Shown here: positions 49,766 to 60,037 of the stretch, one piece after another | Numbering within the stretch: position 1 is the stretch's first letter | Layout of the letters: every line of letters starts with the position of its first letter | DNA from: Burkholderiales bacterium | Lineage (GTDB): Bacteria > Pseudomonadota > Gammaproteobacteria > Burkholderiales > SG8-41 | Reading direction: 5' to 3' | DNA: 64,000 bases | Assembly (NCBI GenBank): GCA_019634975.1 | Contig: JAHCAI010000005.1 | Location: 1 to 64,000 of the forward strand | The notes under the pieces: generated by a model | The model's input: the letters and a program-made list of their open reading frames with translations, nothing else | Told to the model about the DNA's origin: nothing | Databases searched by the model: none | Position numbers and translations under genes: made by a program

Positions 49766-49819
49766 GTAGACGGAAGCGTCTTGCCTCGCGGGAGGCCTCC
49801 TTCAAGAGAGGGAATATCC

Positions 49820-50125
49820 ATGGATACAGAAAGCCTAAAAAACCTCGGCTGGCTTCTCGTCTGGGGCGCCCTGTTTTTCGTGATGATGCGATACGGCTGC
49901 GGGGCGCACATGATGGGCAGACACAGCAAGCGCCAGAAACATCACAACTCCGCATCGAACGGAGAAACCAAAGACCCGGTCTGCGGGATGAGCCTCAGCC
50001 CGGCAAAAGCCGCAGCAGCATCCGCTCTGAAGGGAAACACCTACTACTTCTGCTCCACGTCATGCCGCGACAAGTTCGAGAAGGCGCCGGGCGCCTACAT
50101 TACCGTCGCGCATGAGACGCATTGA
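49820..50125 (+). CDS. YHS-domain membrane protein
   Basis: This 101-residue protein has an N-terminal TM (about 8-22), then a His/Lys segment and a YHS metal-binding domain with KDPVCGMSLSP and YYFCSTSCRDKF (Cys ligands). Such domains often accompany copper ATPases and may deliver metal to them. GAGAGGGA precedes the ATG at 49820. Confidence 0.87.
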   Translation: MDTESLKNLGWLLVWGALFFVMMRYGCGAHMMGRHSKRQKHHNSASNGETKDPVCGMSLSPAKAAAASALKGNTYYFCSTSCRDKFEKAPGAYITVAHETH

Positions 50126-50245: not shown

Positions 50246-52450
50246 ATGAAAACAGACGTAAAACATACCCACCATGATCATAACCACGATCAGGATCACA
50301 AAAGATACATGCCGCACGAACCCGCTGACTCGGCAGGCACTGCGCAATGGACCTGCCCGATGCATCCGGAGATTCTGCGCAATGCTGCCGGTGACTGTCC
50401 GATCTGCGGCATGGCCCTGGTGCCCGTTGCCGGAACCGCGGAAGTCGATGACAGTGAACTTCGCGACCTGACACGCCGCCTGTGGATCGGCATCGTGTTG
50501 TCGATCCCGCTTGTGGTGCTCGCGATGTCACCCATGGTAGGCATAAGTGAACCCTTCGGACTGGCGCCAAAACAACGCGGCTGGTGGGAGTTTGTGCTGG
50601 GCACACCGGTAGTGCTGTGGGTAGGCTGGCCGATCCTGCGCAAGTTCTGGCTGTCGCTTGCACACCGTGCGCTCAACATGTATTCGCTGATCGGCTTGGG
50701 CGTGGGACTGGCCTACCTGTTCAGCCTCGCCGCAGTGTTTCTCCCCAGCCTGTTTCCACCAGAGTTCCGCGAACATGACGGCGCAGTCGGCACCTATTTC
50801 GAAGCTGCCGCAGTCATAGTGACGCTGGTCATTCTCGGCGACGTGCTTCAGGCACGCGCCATGGGGCAGACCAGTCAGGCAATTCGGGAACTGCTGCAAC
50901 TCGCGCCCAACCTCGCCTGGCGCCTGCGCGAGGATGGCATCGAGGAGCAGGTGGCGCTCGACTCGGTCATGGTCGGCGACCGCCTGCGCGTAAAGCCTGG
51001 GGAGAAGATACCAGTAGACGGCAACGTGATCGATGGTGCAAGCCGCGTGGATGAATCGATGATCACCGGGGAACCTGTGCCTGTCGCCAAGGCGGCCGGT
51101 GACCGGGTGACTGGTGCGACCATCAACGGCAGCGGCTCACTGGTGATGCGCGCCGAACGCGTGGGATCAGACACATTGCTCGCCAAAATCGTGCATATGG
51201 TAGGTGAAGCGCAGCGCACACGAGCGCCAATCCAAAGGCTCGCTGACATCATTGCCGCGTATTTCGTTCAAGTCGTTGTCGTGATCGCAGTCGTGACTGC
51301 GCTGGTCTGGTGGATTTCCGGGCCAGAGCCTCGTCTTGCGTACGCACTGCTGAACGCCATCGCCGTGCTGATCATCGCCTGCCCCTGTGCCGTCGGACTG
51401 GCCACACCGATTTCAATGACAGTCGCCATGGGTGAAGGCGCGCGCTCGGGTATCCTGTTCCGCAGTGCCGAAGCGATCGAGCGCATGCGCGATATCGATA
51501 CCCTGGTCATCGACAAGACAGGCACCCTGACAAAGGGCAAACCTGCACTTACCGATTTTGCAGCGGCCGGCATGCCTGAAGACGAGGCACTCGCGCTGAT
51601 GGCCGCAGTCGAACAACTGTCCGAGCACCCCATAGCGCATGCCGTGGTCGAAGGCGCCAAAGCCCGCAATCTCGTGCTACAGACGGTTGAAAAATTCGAA
51701 GCCGCCAACGGCTTGGGCGTACAAGCGGAAATTGCGGCCCACAAGATCCTGGTCGGTAACCGGGATTTCCTGAAAAAATACGATATTGATACACGGCAAT
51801 GGGAAACGCAGGCGGAGACCCTGCGCGACCAGGCCAAAACCGTGGTGTTTCTGGGAGTGGACGGGGCTGCCATCGCCATCGCAGCCGTCGCCGATCCGAT
51901 CAAGGACAGCACACCCGAAGCGATTGCGGAGCTCAAGCGCACCGGTGTACGCATCGTTATGCTGACCGGTGATTCGCGCCGCACCGCCGAGGCTGTTGCA
52001 CAGCAACTCGGCATCGACGAAGCACTGGCCGAAGTGCTGCCGGAAGACAAGGCTGGCCATGTCAGGCGCCTGCAATCAGAGGGACACAAGGTCGCAATGG
52101 CAGGAGATGGCATCAACGACGCTCCTGCCCTTGCCCAGGCTGACGTCGGCATCGCCATGGGTACCGGCACCGACGTTGCCATGGAAAGCGCTGGCGTAAC
52201 CTTGATCAAGGGCGATCTGCGTGGCATTGCCCGTGCCGCCAAGCTGTCCCGTGCAACGATGCGCAACATCCGCCAGAACCTGGTATTCGCCTTCGGCTAC
52301 AACGCGCTCGGGATTCCGATTGCAGCAGGCGCGTTGTATCCTGCTTTCGGGATTTTGCTGTCGCCCATCTTTGCGGGCGCAGCGATGGCATTGAGCTCAG
52401 TCTCGGTCGTCACGAACGCACTGCGTCTTCGTCGTCAGTCCGCGAGATGA
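50246..52450 (+). CDS. P1B-1 type Cu(I)/Ag(I)-exporting ATPase
   Basis: This 734-residue inner-membrane pump has a His-rich N-terminus ([14 protein letters not shown]), followed by a heavy-metal-binding zinc-ribbon-like segment with CPMHPEIL and [10 protein letters not shown] in place of HMA domains. Membrane ligands are CPC ([13 protein letters not shown]), Y-N in [11 protein letters not shown] and M-x-x-S-S in [11 protein letters not shown], which define the Cu(I) class. [11 protein letters not shown] and [12 protein letters not shown] are intact. It resembles SilP/CopB-type pumps. Confidence 0.93.
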
Positions 52451-55566: not shown

Positions 55567-55872
55567 ATGCAAGCGAAACTCGCAGCACTGTGCTGTGCGA
55601 TTGCTGCCGCCTGGCTGTCGCCGGCGGCGGCGCAGCAAACCGAGCGCAAACACCCGGCCGATCCCTCGGCGGCGGTGCCGGCGCCGGTCCATTCATCGGC
55701 CTTCAGCGGCTACCAGCCGCTCGGCTCCGAAAAACCCGGACCCTGGCGCGAACTGAATGACGAGGTGGCCCGCATCGGGGGACACATCGGCATCCTCCGC
55801 GGCACGGCCCCGGGCGCGACATCCGGCAAGGCCGGCGGACATGCCGGACATCATCCCGGGGGAAAGAAATGA
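55567..55872 (+). CDS. Small secreted protein of copper operon B
   Basis: This 101-residue protein has a signal peptide (core LAALCCAIAAAWLSPAAA), the conserved segment FSGYQPLGSEKPGPWRELND with ARIGGHIG after it, and a Gly/His tail (AGGHAGHHPGGKK). It is the counterpart of the protein at 43348 and overlaps the lipoprotein gene by 4 bp, as in operon A. Its function is unknown. Confidence 0.68.
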   Translation: MQAKLAALCCAIAAAWLSPAAAQQTERKHPADPSAAVPAPVHSSAFSGYQPLGSEKPGPWRELNDEVARIGGHIGILRGTAPGATSGKAGGHAGHHPGGKK

Positions 55873-57281
55873 ACGCCCTGCGCAAGTTCATGATTGCCGC
55901 AGTTGCACTGCTGCTCGGCGGCTGCGCGACGTTTTCGGAAGACGGCGGCACCGGCAAGGTCAGTGAAGCTCTCTCGGCACGCGGACTCACCCAGCAGGCG
56001 CCGTGGATCAAATCCGAAGCGGATGCGGACCGCGCAGCCGACCAGGTGCGCAAGCTGCTGGCACAGCCGCTGAGCGCCGATGCCGCGGTGCAGATCGCGC
56101 TGCTCAACAACCGCGGCCTGCAGGCGCAGTACGCCGAACTGGGCATCGCCGAGGCCGATCTGGTGCAGGCCGGCCGCCTGCGCAATCCCGGCTTCTCCTT
56201 CGGCCGCAGCCATCGCGGCGACGAAGTCGAATACGAGCGCGCCTTCATCTTCGACCTGCTGGGCCTGCTGACGATGCCGGTGCGCACACGCATCGAGACG
56301 GAACGGTTCCAGCTCGCGCAGAACCGGCTCACCGCGGAAATTCTGCAGGTGGCTGCCGACACCCGGCGCGCCTGGATCCACGCGGTCGCCGCGCAGCAGT
56401 CGGCCGCCTATGGCGAACAGGTCCGGGACGCGGCGGAAGCCGCGGCGGAACTGTCCCGGCGCATGGTCCGCGCCGGCAACTTCAGCAAGCTCGACCAGGC
56501 GCGGGAACAGGCCTTCTACGCCGATGCCGCGACGCAACTCGCGCGGTCGCGCCAGGCCGCGCTGTCCTCGCGCGAGCAGCTCACCCGGCTGATGGGCCTG
56601 TGGGGCCAGGAGATCGCCTACCGGCTGCCGGAACGGCTGCCGGAACTGCCGCCGGCGCTGCGCGACATCGCGGATATCGAGCAGCAGGCCATGCGCCAGC
56701 GCCTCGACGTGCAGGGCGCGATGCAGGAAGCCGCGAACATCGCCAGCACCCTGGGCCTGACCCGGACCACCGGCTGGTTCAGCGTGCTCGAAGCCAAATA
56801 CATGCGCAACAGCGAGAGCGGAGAACCGCGGCAGACCGGCTGGGAAATCGAGCTGCGGCTGCCGATCTTCGACTTCGGCACCGCGCGCAATGCCCGCGCC
56901 GAGCACATCTACATGCAGGCCGCCAATCGCGCCGCGGACCTTGCAGTGCGTGCGCGCTCCGAAGTGCGCGAGGCCTGGGGCGCCTGGCGCACGGCCTATG
57001 ACCTCGCCCGGCACTACCGCGACGAGGTCGTGCCGCTGCGCGCGCGCATCGCCGAAGAAACCCTGCTGCGCTACAACGGCATGCTGATGAGCGTGTTCGA
57101 GCTGCTTGCCGAGTCCCGGCAGCAGGTCGGCGCCGTGATCGCCGCGATCGAGGCGCAACGCGACTTCTGGATCGCCGACACCACGCTGCAGTTCTCCATC
57201 AACGGCAAGTCCCCGGGCGCCATCGCCGCGCCCGGCGGCGGCCTGCGCGCAACGGCCGCAGCGGCCGAAGCCGGACACTGA
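55869..57281 (+). CDS. TolC-family outer-membrane lipoprotein, copper operon B
   Basis: This 470-residue protein has a lipobox (LLLGGCATF, Cys near 19) and two OEP coiled-coil repeats (VQIALLNNRGLQAQYAELGI; WEIELRLPIFDFGTARNARAEH). It is closely similar to the operon A protein at 43701, with higher-GC codons. It is probably an outer-membrane exit or anchor for the multicopper oxidase pathway. It starts inside the stop codon of the preceding gene. Confidence 0.86.
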   Translation: MNALRKFMIAAVALLLGGCATFSEDGGTGKVSEALSARGLTQQAPWIKSEADADRAADQVRKLLAQPLSADAAVQIALLNNRGLQAQYAELGIAEADLVQAGRLRNPGFSFGRSHRGDEVEYERAFIFDLLGLLTMPVRTRIETERFQLAQNRLTAEILQVAADTRRAWIHAVAAQQSAAYGEQVRDAAEAAAELSRRMVRAGNFSKLDQAREQAFYADAATQLARSRQAALSSREQLTRLMGLWGQEIAYRLPERLPELPPALRDIADIEQQAMRQRLDVQGAMQEAANIASTLGLTRTTGWFSVLEAKYMRNSESGEPRQTGWEIELRLPIFDFGTARNARAEHIYMQAANRAADLAVRARSEVREAWGAWRTAYDLARHYRDEVVPLRARIAEETLLRYNGMLMSVFELLAESRQQVGAVIAAIEAQRDFWIADTTLQFSINGKSPGAIAAPGGGLRATAAAAEAGH

Positions 57282-57297
57282 GATCAAGGAACCAATC

Positions 57298-58674
57298 ATG
57301 AACAACCGCAGAAACTTCCTGCGCGCCTCCGGCGCCGCCCTGCTCGGCGCAGCCACGGTCAGCCGTGCCGCGCAAGGCGCCGTGCCCGAGGCGCCGATGC
57401 AGTCGAAACCCGACACCCAGCCGCCGCTGATGCCGGCGAACGGCCGACCCTACAACCCCGTGGTCACGCTCAACGGCTGGACCCTGCCTTGGCGCATGAA
57501 CCGCGGCTGGAAGGAATTCCACCTCGTCGCCGAACCGGTGCGCCGCCAGATCGCTCCCGGCATGACCGCCAACCTCTGGGGCTACAACGGCCAGTCGCCG
57601 GGCCCGACCATCGAATGCGTCGAGGGCGACAAGGTGCGCATCTTCGTCACCAACAGGCTGCCGGAACACACGACCATCCACTGGCACGGCATCCTGCTGC
57701 CCAGCGGCATGGACGGCGTCGGCGGCCTGACCCAGCCGCAGATACCGGCCGGCAAGACCTTCGTCTACGAATTCGAGATGAAAAAATCCGGCACCTTCAT
57801 GTATCACCCCCACGCCGACGAGATGGTGCAGATGGCAATGGGCATGATGGGCTTCCTGGTGGTGCACCCGAAGAATCCGAACTTCATGAAGGTCGACCGC
57901 GATTTCGTGTTCCTGCTGAACGCCTTCGACATCGAACCCGGTGCCGCCACACCGAAGGTCAACACCATGCTCGACTTCAACCTGTGGTGCTGGAACTCGC
58001 GCGCCTTTCCCGGCATCGACCCCTTCGTCGTGCGCACCGGCGACCGCGTGCGCATCCGCTTCGGCAACCTGACGATGACCAACCATCCGGTGCACATGCA
58101 CGGCTACGACTTCGAGGTCACCTGCACCGACGGCGGCTGGGTGCCGAAATCGGCGCGCTGGCCGGAAGTCACGGTGGACGTCGCGGTCGGCCAGATGCGC
58201 GCCTTCGAGTTCACCGCGGACGTGCCCGGCGACTGGGCCATCCACTGCCACAAGTCGCACCACGTGATGAACGCGATGGGCCACGGCGTGCCGACAATGA
58301 TCGGCGTCGACCACCGCGGCGTCGCGCAGAAGATCATGAAGTTGGTGCCCGACTACATGGTGATGGGCGAGCGCGGCATGGCCGACATGGGCGAGATGGA
58401 AATGCCGCTGCCCGACAACACGCTGCCGATGATGACCGGCCACGGCCCCTTCGGCCCGCTGGAAATGGGCGGCATGTTCACGGTGGTCAAGGTGCGCGAC
58501 GGACTCGCGCGCAATGACTACAAGGACCCGGGCTGGTACAAACATCCGCCGGGCACGGTGTCCTACGAGTGGACCGGCGAGGCGCCGGCTCCGGTCAAGG
58601 CTGCGCCGGCAACAGCAGCGACGCCGGGGCGCGAATTCCGCGCACGCAAGCCGGCTTCCGGACACAATCACTAA
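57298..58674 (+). CDS. Tat-exported multicopper oxidase, copper operon B
   Basis: This 458-residue paralogue of the oxidase at 45153 has a Tat signal (NRRNFLRASGAALLGAA) and ligand motifs HWHG, YHPHADE, HPVHMHG and HCHKSHHVMNAM. These give a full set of type 1, 2 and 3 copper sites. Most of the mature chain is the same as the operon A enzyme; differences cluster in the signal and C-terminal tail. The predicted role is periplasmic Cu(I) oxidation. AAGGA precedes the ATG. Confidence 0.93.
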   Translation: MNNRRNFLRASGAALLGAATVSRAAQGAVPEAPMQSKPDTQPPLMPANGRPYNPVVTLNGWTLPWRMNRGWKEFHLVAEPVRRQIAPGMTANLWGYNGQSPGPTIECVEGDKVRIFVTNRLPEHTTIHWHGILLPSGMDGVGGLTQPQIPAGKTFVYEFEMKKSGTFMYHPHADEMVQMAMGMMGFLVVHPKNPNFMKVDRDFVFLLNAFDIEPGAATPKVNTMLDFNLWCWNSRAFPGIDPFVVRTGDRVRIRFGNLTMTNHPVHMHGYDFEVTCTDGGWVPKSARWPEVTVDVAVGQMRAFEFTADVPGDWAIHCHKSHHVMNAMGHGVPTMIGVDHRGVAQKIMKLVPDYMVMGERGMADMGEMEMPLPDNTLPMMTGHGPFGPLEMGGMFTVVKVRDGLARNDYKDPGWYKHPPGTVSYEWTGEAPAPVKAAPATAATPGREFRARKPASGHNH

Positions 58675-58712: not shown

Positions 58713-59216
58713 ATGAACATCCGTTACCCGCTGGTAGCCGCACTGATGCTTGCCGCTTTCTCGACAGCACCCGCCTGGGCACATGGTGAAGCCCATGGCA
58801 AAAAAAGCGGCAAACCGGCCGCGATCAATCCGGAGGAAAAAGCCTTCGGCAAGCAGGGCGACCCGAAACGAATCGACCGCACCATCCATGTCGACATGAA
58901 CGACAAGATGCGTTTCACGCCGTCTGCGCTGACCGTGAAACAGGGCGAAACCATCCGCTTCATCGTCAAGAACTCGGGCAAGGTCATGCACGAGTTCGTG
59001 CTCGGCAACATGGCAGAGTTGAAGGAACACGCCGAGCTGATGAAAAAATTCCCGGACATGGAGCACGACGAGCCGTACATGGCCCATGTTTCGCCCGGCA
59101 AGACGGAAACCATCGTCTGGCAGTTCACCAGGGCCGGCGAGTTCCATTTCGGCTGCCTGTTGCCCGGACATTTCGAGGCCGGTATGGTCGGCAAGGTCAA
59201 CGTAACCCGGAGGTGA
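58713..59216 (+). CDS. Cupredoxin-like periplasmic copper protein, operon B
   Basis: This 167-residue exported protein is paralogous to that at 46575. It has a signal peptide (core VAALMLAAFSTAPAWA), a His/Lys linker, and copper ligands in VMHEFV and FGCLLPGHFEAGM. It probably exchanges copper or electrons with the oxidase encoded just upstream. The gene ends 3 bp before the DUF411 start. Confidence 0.93.
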   Translation: MNIRYPLVAALMLAAFSTAPAWAHGEAHGKKSGKPAAINPEEKAFGKQGDPKRIDRTIHVDMNDKMRFTPSALTVKQGETIRFIVKNSGKVMHEFVLGNMAELKEHAELMKKFPDMEHDEPYMAHVSPGKTETIVWQFTRAGEFHFGCLLPGHFEAGMVGKVNVTRR

Positions 59217-59219
59217 TCC

Positions 59220-59663
59220 ATGAAAATCCAGAGACGCCAATTCATGCTCGCACTGGCTGCAGCCGCAGTGACCGGCGCGGCCCACGCCAATGAACCGCCG
59301 CTGGTCACGGTTTATCTGAATCCCAGTTGAGGCTGCTGCGGCGCGTGGATGGATCATCTGCGCGCCAACGGCTTCCGTGTGAAGTCCGTCGCAATCGAAG
59401 ACACCGCCGTCGAGCGCAAACGCCGCGGCATTCCCGAATCCCTTGGCGGCTGCCACACCGGCGTCGTCGACGGTTACGCCATCGAGGGCCACGTGCCGGC
59501 GCGTGAGATCAAGCGCCTGCTCGCTGAGCGCCCCGCCGCAGTCGGACTCGCCGTGCCCGGCATGCCGCAGGGCTCGCCCGGCATGGAATCGCCGACGCCG
59601 CAGCGCTACAACGTGCTGCTGGTCAACAAGGACGGCCGCCATACCGTTTATGCCCGTTACTGA
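59220..59663 (+). CDS. DUF411 protein with in-frame TGA at the first motif cysteine: probable selenoprotein
   Basis: The gene encodes 147 residues if TGA at 59328-59330 is read as selenocysteine (residue 37). A strong GGAGGTGA precedes the ATG. The N-terminus QRRQFMLALAAAA looks like a Tat signal. The sequence NPS-U-GCCGAWMDHLRANG aligns with the DUF411 thioredoxin-fold motif PTCGCCGKW, so TGA replaces exactly the first Cys. The rest of the family is intact (GGCHTGVVDGY, GHVPAREIKRLL, VGLAVPGMPQGSPGME) with no frameshift to the stop at 59661. A SECIS-like stem-loop lies at 59340-59366. DUF411 proteins are thought to bind copper. Operon A has no copy. The alternative is a Cys-to-stop nonsense mutation. 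Simple gene calling would report only a truncated protein from 59349. Confidence 0.8.
59340..59366 (+). promoter_or_regulatory. SECIS-like stem-loop downstream of in-frame TGA
   Basis: Positions 59340-59350 pair with 59356-59366 in an uninterrupted 11-bp RNA stem (six G-C pairs, two G-U wobbles, then G-C, A-U, U-A), closed by the 5-nt loop GGAUC at 59351-59355. The apical loop starts 21 nt after the UGA and has G in its first two positions. Both properties fit the known bacterial SECIS consensus (loop G, short upper stem, about 16-37 nt from UGA). It lies inside coding sequence, as bacterial SECIS elements do. Confidence 0.72.
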
Positions 59664-59698: not shown

Positions 59699-60037
59699 AT
59701 GAGAAACACCCTGCTGCTTGCCGCGATGCTCGCGACCGCGCCCGTTTTCGCCCAGCAATCGGGCACCGATCATGCTGCCCACCATCCGGCGCCCGCCGCT
59801 TCCGCTGCAAAAAGCGCGCTGTCTGACGCCGAGGTGCGCAAGGTCGACCTCGACGCCAAAAAAATCACCCTGCGCCACGGCCCCATCCCCAATCTCGACA
59901 TGCCGCCGATGACCATGGTGTTCCAGGTCAGGGATCCGGCCCTGCTGCAAGGTCTCAAGACCGGCGACAAGGTCCGCTTCAGCGCGGAAAAAATCGGCAG
60001 CGCCTATACCGTGACTGGCATCGAAGCCGCAAAGTGA
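59699..60037 (+). CDS. CusF-like periplasmic copper-binding protein, operon B
   Basis: This 112-residue exported protein has a signal peptide (core LLLAAMLATAPVFA), a His segment (DHAAHHP) and a CusF barrel with RHGPIPNLDMPPMTM. His and both M-x-M ligands are kept, and Trp is replaced by Met as in the operon A copy. It is the last gene of operon B. GGAGAAACACC precedes the ATG. Confidence 0.88.
   Translation: MRNTLLLAAMLATAPVFAQQSGTDHAAHHPAPAASAAKSALSDAEVRKVDLDAKKITLRHGPIPNLDMPPMTMVFQVRDPALLQGLKTGDKVRFSAEKIGSAYTVTGIEAAK

Follow-up and report, generated by a model that had tools for sequence, protein, structure and literature searches.

A CopG-like DUF411 gene with a predicted selenocysteine codon and a predicted SECIS hairpin in a single family of environmental betaproteobacteria

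A DUF411 gene with an in-frame UGA and a downstream hairpin

We analysed a stretch of 64,000 nucleotides from a Burkholderiales bacterium (contig JAHCAI010000005.1 of assembly GCA_019634975.1, positions 1 to 64,000; hereafter the window), in which a gene for a protein of the DUF411/CopG type (59220–59663) lies among copper-related genes. The frame is otherwise intact, with a TGA at 59328–59330 as the sole in-frame stop before the terminal TGA (59661–59663), and this codon occupies the first position of the C-G-C-C motif seen in homologues and in CopG, which here reads U-G-C-C. The Pfam model DUF411 (PF04214) matched with 91.7 bits against a cut-off of 27, covering residues 76–122, i.e., the part 3′ of the TGA. 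Behind the TGA, at a spacing of 9 nt, lies a hairpin (59340–59366) with the sequence GGCGCGUGGAUG-GAU-CAUCUGCGCGCC, which forms a perfect 12-bp stem capped by a loop of 3 nt or, drawn alternatively, a stem of 11 bp with the 5-nt loop GGAUC (59351–59355), the latter starting at the 21st nucleotide after the TGA. A first-pass annotation of the window, made from the letters alone, had claimed a single in-frame TGA at the first cysteine of this motif and an 11-bp stem with just this loop and spacing; frame reading and hairpin coordinates bear out both, and the in-frame TGA in the DUF411 gene together with the downstream hairpin is confirmed.

The hairpin folds at −19.4 kcal/mol with a z-score of −4.85 against 200 dinucleotide shuffles, and an Rfam search of the window returned nothing at the gathering cut-off and only chance-level matches at a relaxed one. 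The consensus of bacterial selenocysteine insertion sequence (SECIS) elements has a G among the first nucleotides of the apical loop. Conserved loop guanosines are named in a figure legend of PMC2398784. Quantification of the loops in 45 TGA-bearing homologues, described below, revealed a G in position 1 or 2 of the 5-nt loop in 37 and in any loop position in 43, and the GGAUC of the window fits this pattern.

We consider it highly probable that the gene at 59220–59663 encodes a CopG/DUF411-type protein whose UGA is predicted to be read as selenocysteine (Sec) through the organism's own SelA, SelB, tRNA-Sec and SelD and the SECIS hairpin at 59340–59366, so that the selenoprotein interpretation of the first-pass annotation is largely supported. 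What speaks strongly against chance is the comparison among relatives, namely conservation of the UGA, the contrast in the stem between TGA and Cys members, and covariation, more than the single sequence.

The UGA, the hairpin and the selenocysteine machinery among relatives

A profile of 31 DUF411 proteins, searched against 74 genomes of the window's taxonomic family, gave 51 matches in 46 genomes. Exactly one TGA was present in 45 of these matches, from 43 genomes, two of which have two TGA copies, and TAA or TAG was found inside none of the 51. Of the six TGA-free matches, G433 has one (TGC), G470 one (Cys, in CxCG) and G466 one as its second copy (TGC); the other three are partial, one from G413 and two from G414; two fetched partial matches from the last two genomes are decayed DUF411 remnants (L179, L180). 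In a sample of the class, 100 of 369 genomes had a DUF411 match, with an internal stop only in the window's own genome; in a sample of the order the figure was 142 of 399, and among the matches listed the TGA rows all came from the window's family. As far as sampled, the UGA trait thus appears confined to one family of environmental betaproteobacteria. All 20 named TGA records among 80 loci are metagenome-assembled, and of 3452 plasmid records with a relative none was ≥60% identical. One record, L039 (CAMAYE010000013.1), is titled a Bordetella parapertussis metagenome-assembled genome (MAG), yet encodes a member of the environmental betaproteobacterial clade; the title is probably a mislabel.

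For comparison at the codon level we read 163 loci (L018–L180, four of them not DUF411), collapsing identical stretches and dropping loci without a recognisable motif. At the same codon column TGA stands in 45 distinct sequences and TGC or TGT in 82 distinct Cys sequences, none having Trp. The UGA therefore falls in a conserved Cys column and is kept across species with open flanks, as expected of a bacterial selenoprotein. Scoring twelve pairs at fixed positions revealed that all six inner pairs are kept in 39 of the 45 TGA but 3 of the 82 Cys sequences, and the mean fold energy was −17.0 kcal/mol for the former and −8.1 kcal/mol for the latter (P = 2e-13); the alignment of homologues proposed in the first-pass annotation thus finds TGA and stem kept in family relatives and the stem missing from nearly all Cys homologues. 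Across 34 distinct TGA rows of 45 nt, pairs formed in 83.6% of cells, and both the percentage paired and the covariation exceeded all 500 shuffles and every slid register, with the caveat, which counts against the hairpin, that rows of close kin may beat shuffles without any structure. Column 22, the opening base of codon 7 (usually Met/Ile or Val), covaries with column 30, the last base of codon 9 (usually His), in TGA members (30, 2, 1, 12; P = 4e-8), also when only His codons are taken (28, 2, 1, 6; P = 8e-5), and shows no association in Cys members (11, 6, 28, 34; P = 0.18). Leu at codon 10 is CTG in 41 of 44 cases in TGA members vs. 16 of 37 in Cys members, and synonymous resampling gave a mean z of 1.77 for TGA and −0.17 for Cys sequences. 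A conserved, covarying hairpin therefore marks the TGA members, consistent with a predicted SECIS.

A quick tree built from 127 rows and 120 columns, in which few forks are starred, calls for three state changes, with a main Sec clade of 39 in which the Cys row L021 is nested and a second Sec group elsewhere, possibly of separate origin and consisting of L172–L175, L177 and perhaps L178. These six loci form a divergent TGA group (TGAGGGTGCTG..., with a shorter inner stem) within the same taxonomic family, and the genomes G418 and G419 carry both TGA groups. L021 (1414–1854; the same gene as L133) has TGC at the Sec site and an intact 12-bp hairpin; it is among the three Cys exceptions and has all 12 pairs. 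Its genome (G004, 2.5 Mb) keeps tRNA-Sec, and selB above cut-off was not found in it; the DUF411 gene of L021 also occurs in G433, listed as 74% complete. Closest relatives with TGC and no stem had been named beforehand as evidence that would speak against Sec; the only close TGC relative is L021, and since it sits within the TGA clade and its hairpin is intact, we read it as a likely recent Sec-to-Cys change with a relic SECIS.

The window's genome, of 3.37 Mb and 95.9% complete, contains all four genes of the machinery that the first-pass annotation had listed for a genome search: selB (C12:411132–413015, 429 bits) with selA next to it (534 bits), tRNA-Sec (C12:405435–405525, 75.9 bits; also called as tRNA-SeC with a TCA anticodon by ARAGORN) and selD (C3:53081–54010, 420 bits). 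SelD itself (L099 1501–2430; G000:C3:53081–54010) is a predicted selenoprotein because of an in-frame TGA (GGGUGCK); taken as a positive control, this UGA is followed by a weak fold (z = −1.33) with the loop at a nearly equal distance. In the 44 genomes of loci L018–L061, out of the 80 loci, selB was above cut-off in 24, i.e., in 20 of 20 TGA vs. 4 of 24 Cys genomes (Fisher P = 6e-9), and tRNA-Sec in 26 (19 of 20 TGA and 7 of 24 Cys genomes, two of these seven being weak at 49–50 bits). Within the family, tRNA-Sec was found in 41 of the 43 TGA genomes; the two sets overlap and are therefore not independent.

Several results weigh against reading the UGA as Sec by way of this hairpin. For the window sequence alone, synonymous-codon resampling makes the 12 pairs only modestly unusual (P = 0.03), and among the 45 TGA sequences it gave P < 0.05 in 23 and P < 0.001 in none. 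Two-sided changes occur in 6 pairs, a count also reached in two slid registers and in 11 of the 500 shuffles, and RNAalifold on the 34 rows returned a weak consensus of −2.21 kcal/mol with four inner stem pairs only. On the tree, the covariation of columns 22 and 30 comes down to 2 to 4 independent pairs, which agree in direction in an average of 1.7 out of 2 and are never opposed, too few to reach significance. The loop G is not universal, given the 37 of 45 above, and the outer stem decays in L169–L171 and in the second TGA group (L172–L178). As to the machinery, a tRNA-Sec match is absent from 7 of the 74 family genomes, including the TGA genomes G428 and G449 (79 and 80% complete), and from G021, a probable duplicate of G428 judging by the DUF411 sequence. 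In L169 (689–733), the lower stem forms again with one unpaired U in the 3′ arm, which gives the gene in this relative a SECIS of another shape.

Other readings of the TGA fare worse. That a plain nonsense mutation, or an error of sequencing, put it into a gene under decay is hardly credible and already refuted by its conservation. The remnants in G413 and G414 (L179, L180) indicate that the gene can decay in this family, yet the TGA stands at one codon in 45 distinct sequences, in frames open on both sides and never broken by TAA or TAG, and co-occurs with the hairpin and the Sec machinery. Very improbable, too, is that the true product is the 104-residue frame from the Met after the TGA (59349). 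A length of 104–109 residues is found in 54 of 120 among the database homologues listed (of 7043; counted by hand), and five fetched short entries begin at the equivalent of Met 59349 or two codons before it. This Met is, however, not a conserved start, because ATG or GTG stands there in only 19 of the 45 TGA sequences (17 ATG, 2 GTG), and signal segment, first strand and CxCC would all be missing from the short product, yet the upstream part is open and conserved. Many database entries begin past the Sec codon because gene callers start after the TGA; the frame 59349–59663 of the window and entries such as P0002 and P0044 look like truncated calls of this kind. An equally slim chance is left to UGA being read as Cys or Trp via a reassigned code or a suppressor tRNA, which would suit a metagenome entry (P0008) that has Trp at the site in an apparent code-4 translation and also runs on into CusF. 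Against it, the same gene terminates with TGA, each TGA-bearing match has one internal TGA, which sits at the motif wherever its place was read (45 sequences), Cys homologues show TGC or TGT and never Trp at the site, and tRNA-Sec (TCA), SelB and a UGA-containing SelD are present.

Likeness to CopG and the copper gene neighbourhood

The window protein matched CopG (PDB 6WIS/6WJE) by sequence and by the fold of its predicted model, and is 46–47% identical to it. It has the DUF411 domain, the CopG fold and the C-x-C-C plus M-x6-M motifs, with Sec predicted in place of the first Cys; the residues concerned and the neighbouring genes are collected in Table 1. The Met pair matches the motif described for Rhodobacter capsulatus CutG (PMC8456105). 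Compared with CopG of Pseudomonas aeruginosa and CutG, the window protein differs in that the first Cys of its CxCC is encoded as a UGA followed by a SECIS-like hairpin.

Table 1. Coordinates of the DUF411/CopG-like gene, its predicted elements and residues, and neighbouring copper genes in the window
Feature	Position	Strand	Basis
DUF411/CopG-like gene, 147 codons, single in-frame TGA, terminal stop TGA	59220..59663	+	Sequence, Pfam, CopG likeness
Signal-like N-terminal segment, RRQF (residues 5–8), possible Tat signal	59220..59291	+	Sequence; Tat model E 0.21, below cut-off
In-frame TGA, predicted Sec codon, residue 37, first CxCC position	59328..59330	+	Codon position, family comparison
C39 and C40 of U-x-C-C	59334..59339	+	Invariant in 31-row alignment
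Predicted SECIS hairpin (5′ arm 59340–59351, loop 59352–59354, 3′ arm 59355–59366)	59340..59366	+	Fold and comparison
C78, third invariant cysteine, CHT motif	59451..59453	+	31-row alignment
M115-x6-M122, two invariant methionines	59562..59585	+	31-row alignment; match M120-x6-M127 of R. capsulatus CutG
Heavy-metal P-type ATPase (HMBD domain), further upstream	50246..52450	+	Profile match
Outer membrane efflux protein (OEP), copper cluster	55869..57281	+	Profile match
Multicopper oxidase	57298..58674	+	Profile match
Cupredoxin (plastocyanin/azurin-like), directly upstream	58713..59216	+	Profile match
CusF-like periplasmic copper-binding protein, directly downstream	59699..60037	+	Profile match

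A survey of flanks up to 3 kb by tblastn with the window's proteins found a multicopper oxidase at 12, a cupredoxin at 13 and CusF at 13 of 17 Sec loci (>4 kb), and at 9, 20 and 9, respectively, of 48 Cys loci, counts that are biased to near relatives because the queries are the window's own proteins. Several Sec loci of greater distance, L028, L033 and L034, show none of the three. A small Cys-rich and putatively YHS-like frame (49781–50125) immediately precedes the HMBD P-type ATPase in the window. The first-pass annotation had placed a selenoprotein exported by the twin-arginine translocation (Tat) pathway in a copper operon; the Sec reading and the copper cluster are supported, and Tat export is only suggested, by the RRQF motif near the N-terminus and an NCBIfam Tat model with E = 0.21, below its cut-off. 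An upstream RR-x-hydrophobic motif occurs in 25 of 45 TGA and 22 of 82 Cys sequences, a crude comparison that we do not use as support.

A possible selenium–copper site and its place among selenoproteins

In the mechanism that we propose, SelB would bind the hairpin and Sec would be inserted at the UGA, and the mature protein, judging from the literature on CopG, would be periplasmic, with U37, C39 and C40 binding a copper cluster together with M115 and M122. Compared with a thiolate, a selenolate is softer and has greater acidity, and it would favour Cu(I) and rapid electron exchange. Here it could serve as copper ligand and redox group, speeding or tuning Cu(I)/Cu(II) oxidation, and might aid the hand-over of copper to the multicopper oxidase, the cupredoxin and the CusF encoded nearby, a chemistry that agrees with the oxidoreductase role proposed for CopG. 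The CopG of P. aeruginosa has Cu oxidoreductase activity and a tetranuclear copper cluster (PMC7558416, PMC8456105) held by the CxCC and two Met. In the Sec form, selenium probably serves the copper cluster as a ligand or as a redox partner. Mutation of the CxCC or the Met pair in R. capsulatus CutG had no significant effect on CutO activity (PMC8456105), which counts against this role and makes the functional weight of the site uncertain.

The chief remaining rival is a selenoprotein in which Sec does thiol-disulfide chemistry in the manner of a glutaredoxin, with no Se–Cu bonding. We regard this as a real but lesser possibility, since CopG binds its cluster through the CxCC (PMC7558416) and many Sec members still have copper genes as neighbours. 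On balance we lean, by a modest degree, toward a genetically encoded Sec as ligand of a multinuclear copper cluster, i.e., a seleno-CopG with a (Se,S)-bridged core, widespread in one bacterial family, with at least one change to Cys in which the SECIS was kept and with a second paralogous group.

A 2026 review (PMC13188914) lists 119 prokaryotic selenoprotein families or subfamilies, and the table and searched text of that review contain none of DUF411, PF04214, COG3019, CopG or UGCC. Literature searches joining DUF411, PF04214, COG3019 or CopG with selenoprotein, selenocysteine or SECIS gave no paper linking both among the matches listed, supplementary files and the groundwater-MAG candidates of Deng et al. 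(2026, Cell Rep) being outside their scope. NCBIfam (June 2026) has no named DUF411 selenoprotein model above cut-off for the window protein; its six weak matches (E 0.01 to 0.21) include glutaredoxin-like and Uxx-star (seleno)protein models. Selenoproteins of the thioredoxin fold (glutaredoxin, thioredoxin and Sec.2 thioredoxin-like; PMC13188914, Table 1) are alike in that Sec replaces a Cys that is present in homologues elsewhere, and differ in belonging to another domain family with the motifs U-x-x-C or U-x-C, as opposed to the U-x-C-C of seleno-CopG. The metal-linked entries of the same review are alike in placing Sec in predicted metal-handling proteins, none of them being CopG/DUF411: a CopZ-like 2Fe-2S protein (GxUC, CU), a cation P-type ATPase (UxxC), a putative mercuric transport protein, a YHS protein (GxU) and the SO_0444 Cu/Zn efflux transporter (UxC). 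The first-pass annotation knew of no described DUF411 selenoprotein family, and none appeared in the review table, NCBIfam or the literature matches listed; we conclude on these grounds that the predicted Sec form of CopG (U-x-C-C) is a so far unlisted selenoprotein family. To our knowledge, none of the metal-linked selenoproteins above carries a cysteine-bridged copper cluster, and we know of no other protein in which an encoded Sec ligates a multinuclear copper cluster.

If true, the finding would add a copper-tied family to the list of 119, and the natural exchange of Se for S at one cluster ligand would probe the role of that ligand (Se K-edge, redox potential, Sec vs. Cys). Read as Sec, the UGA also accounts for many database entries whose start lies past this codon, and the TGC relative, its hairpin intact, is a fresh case of a likely Sec-to-Cys conversion.
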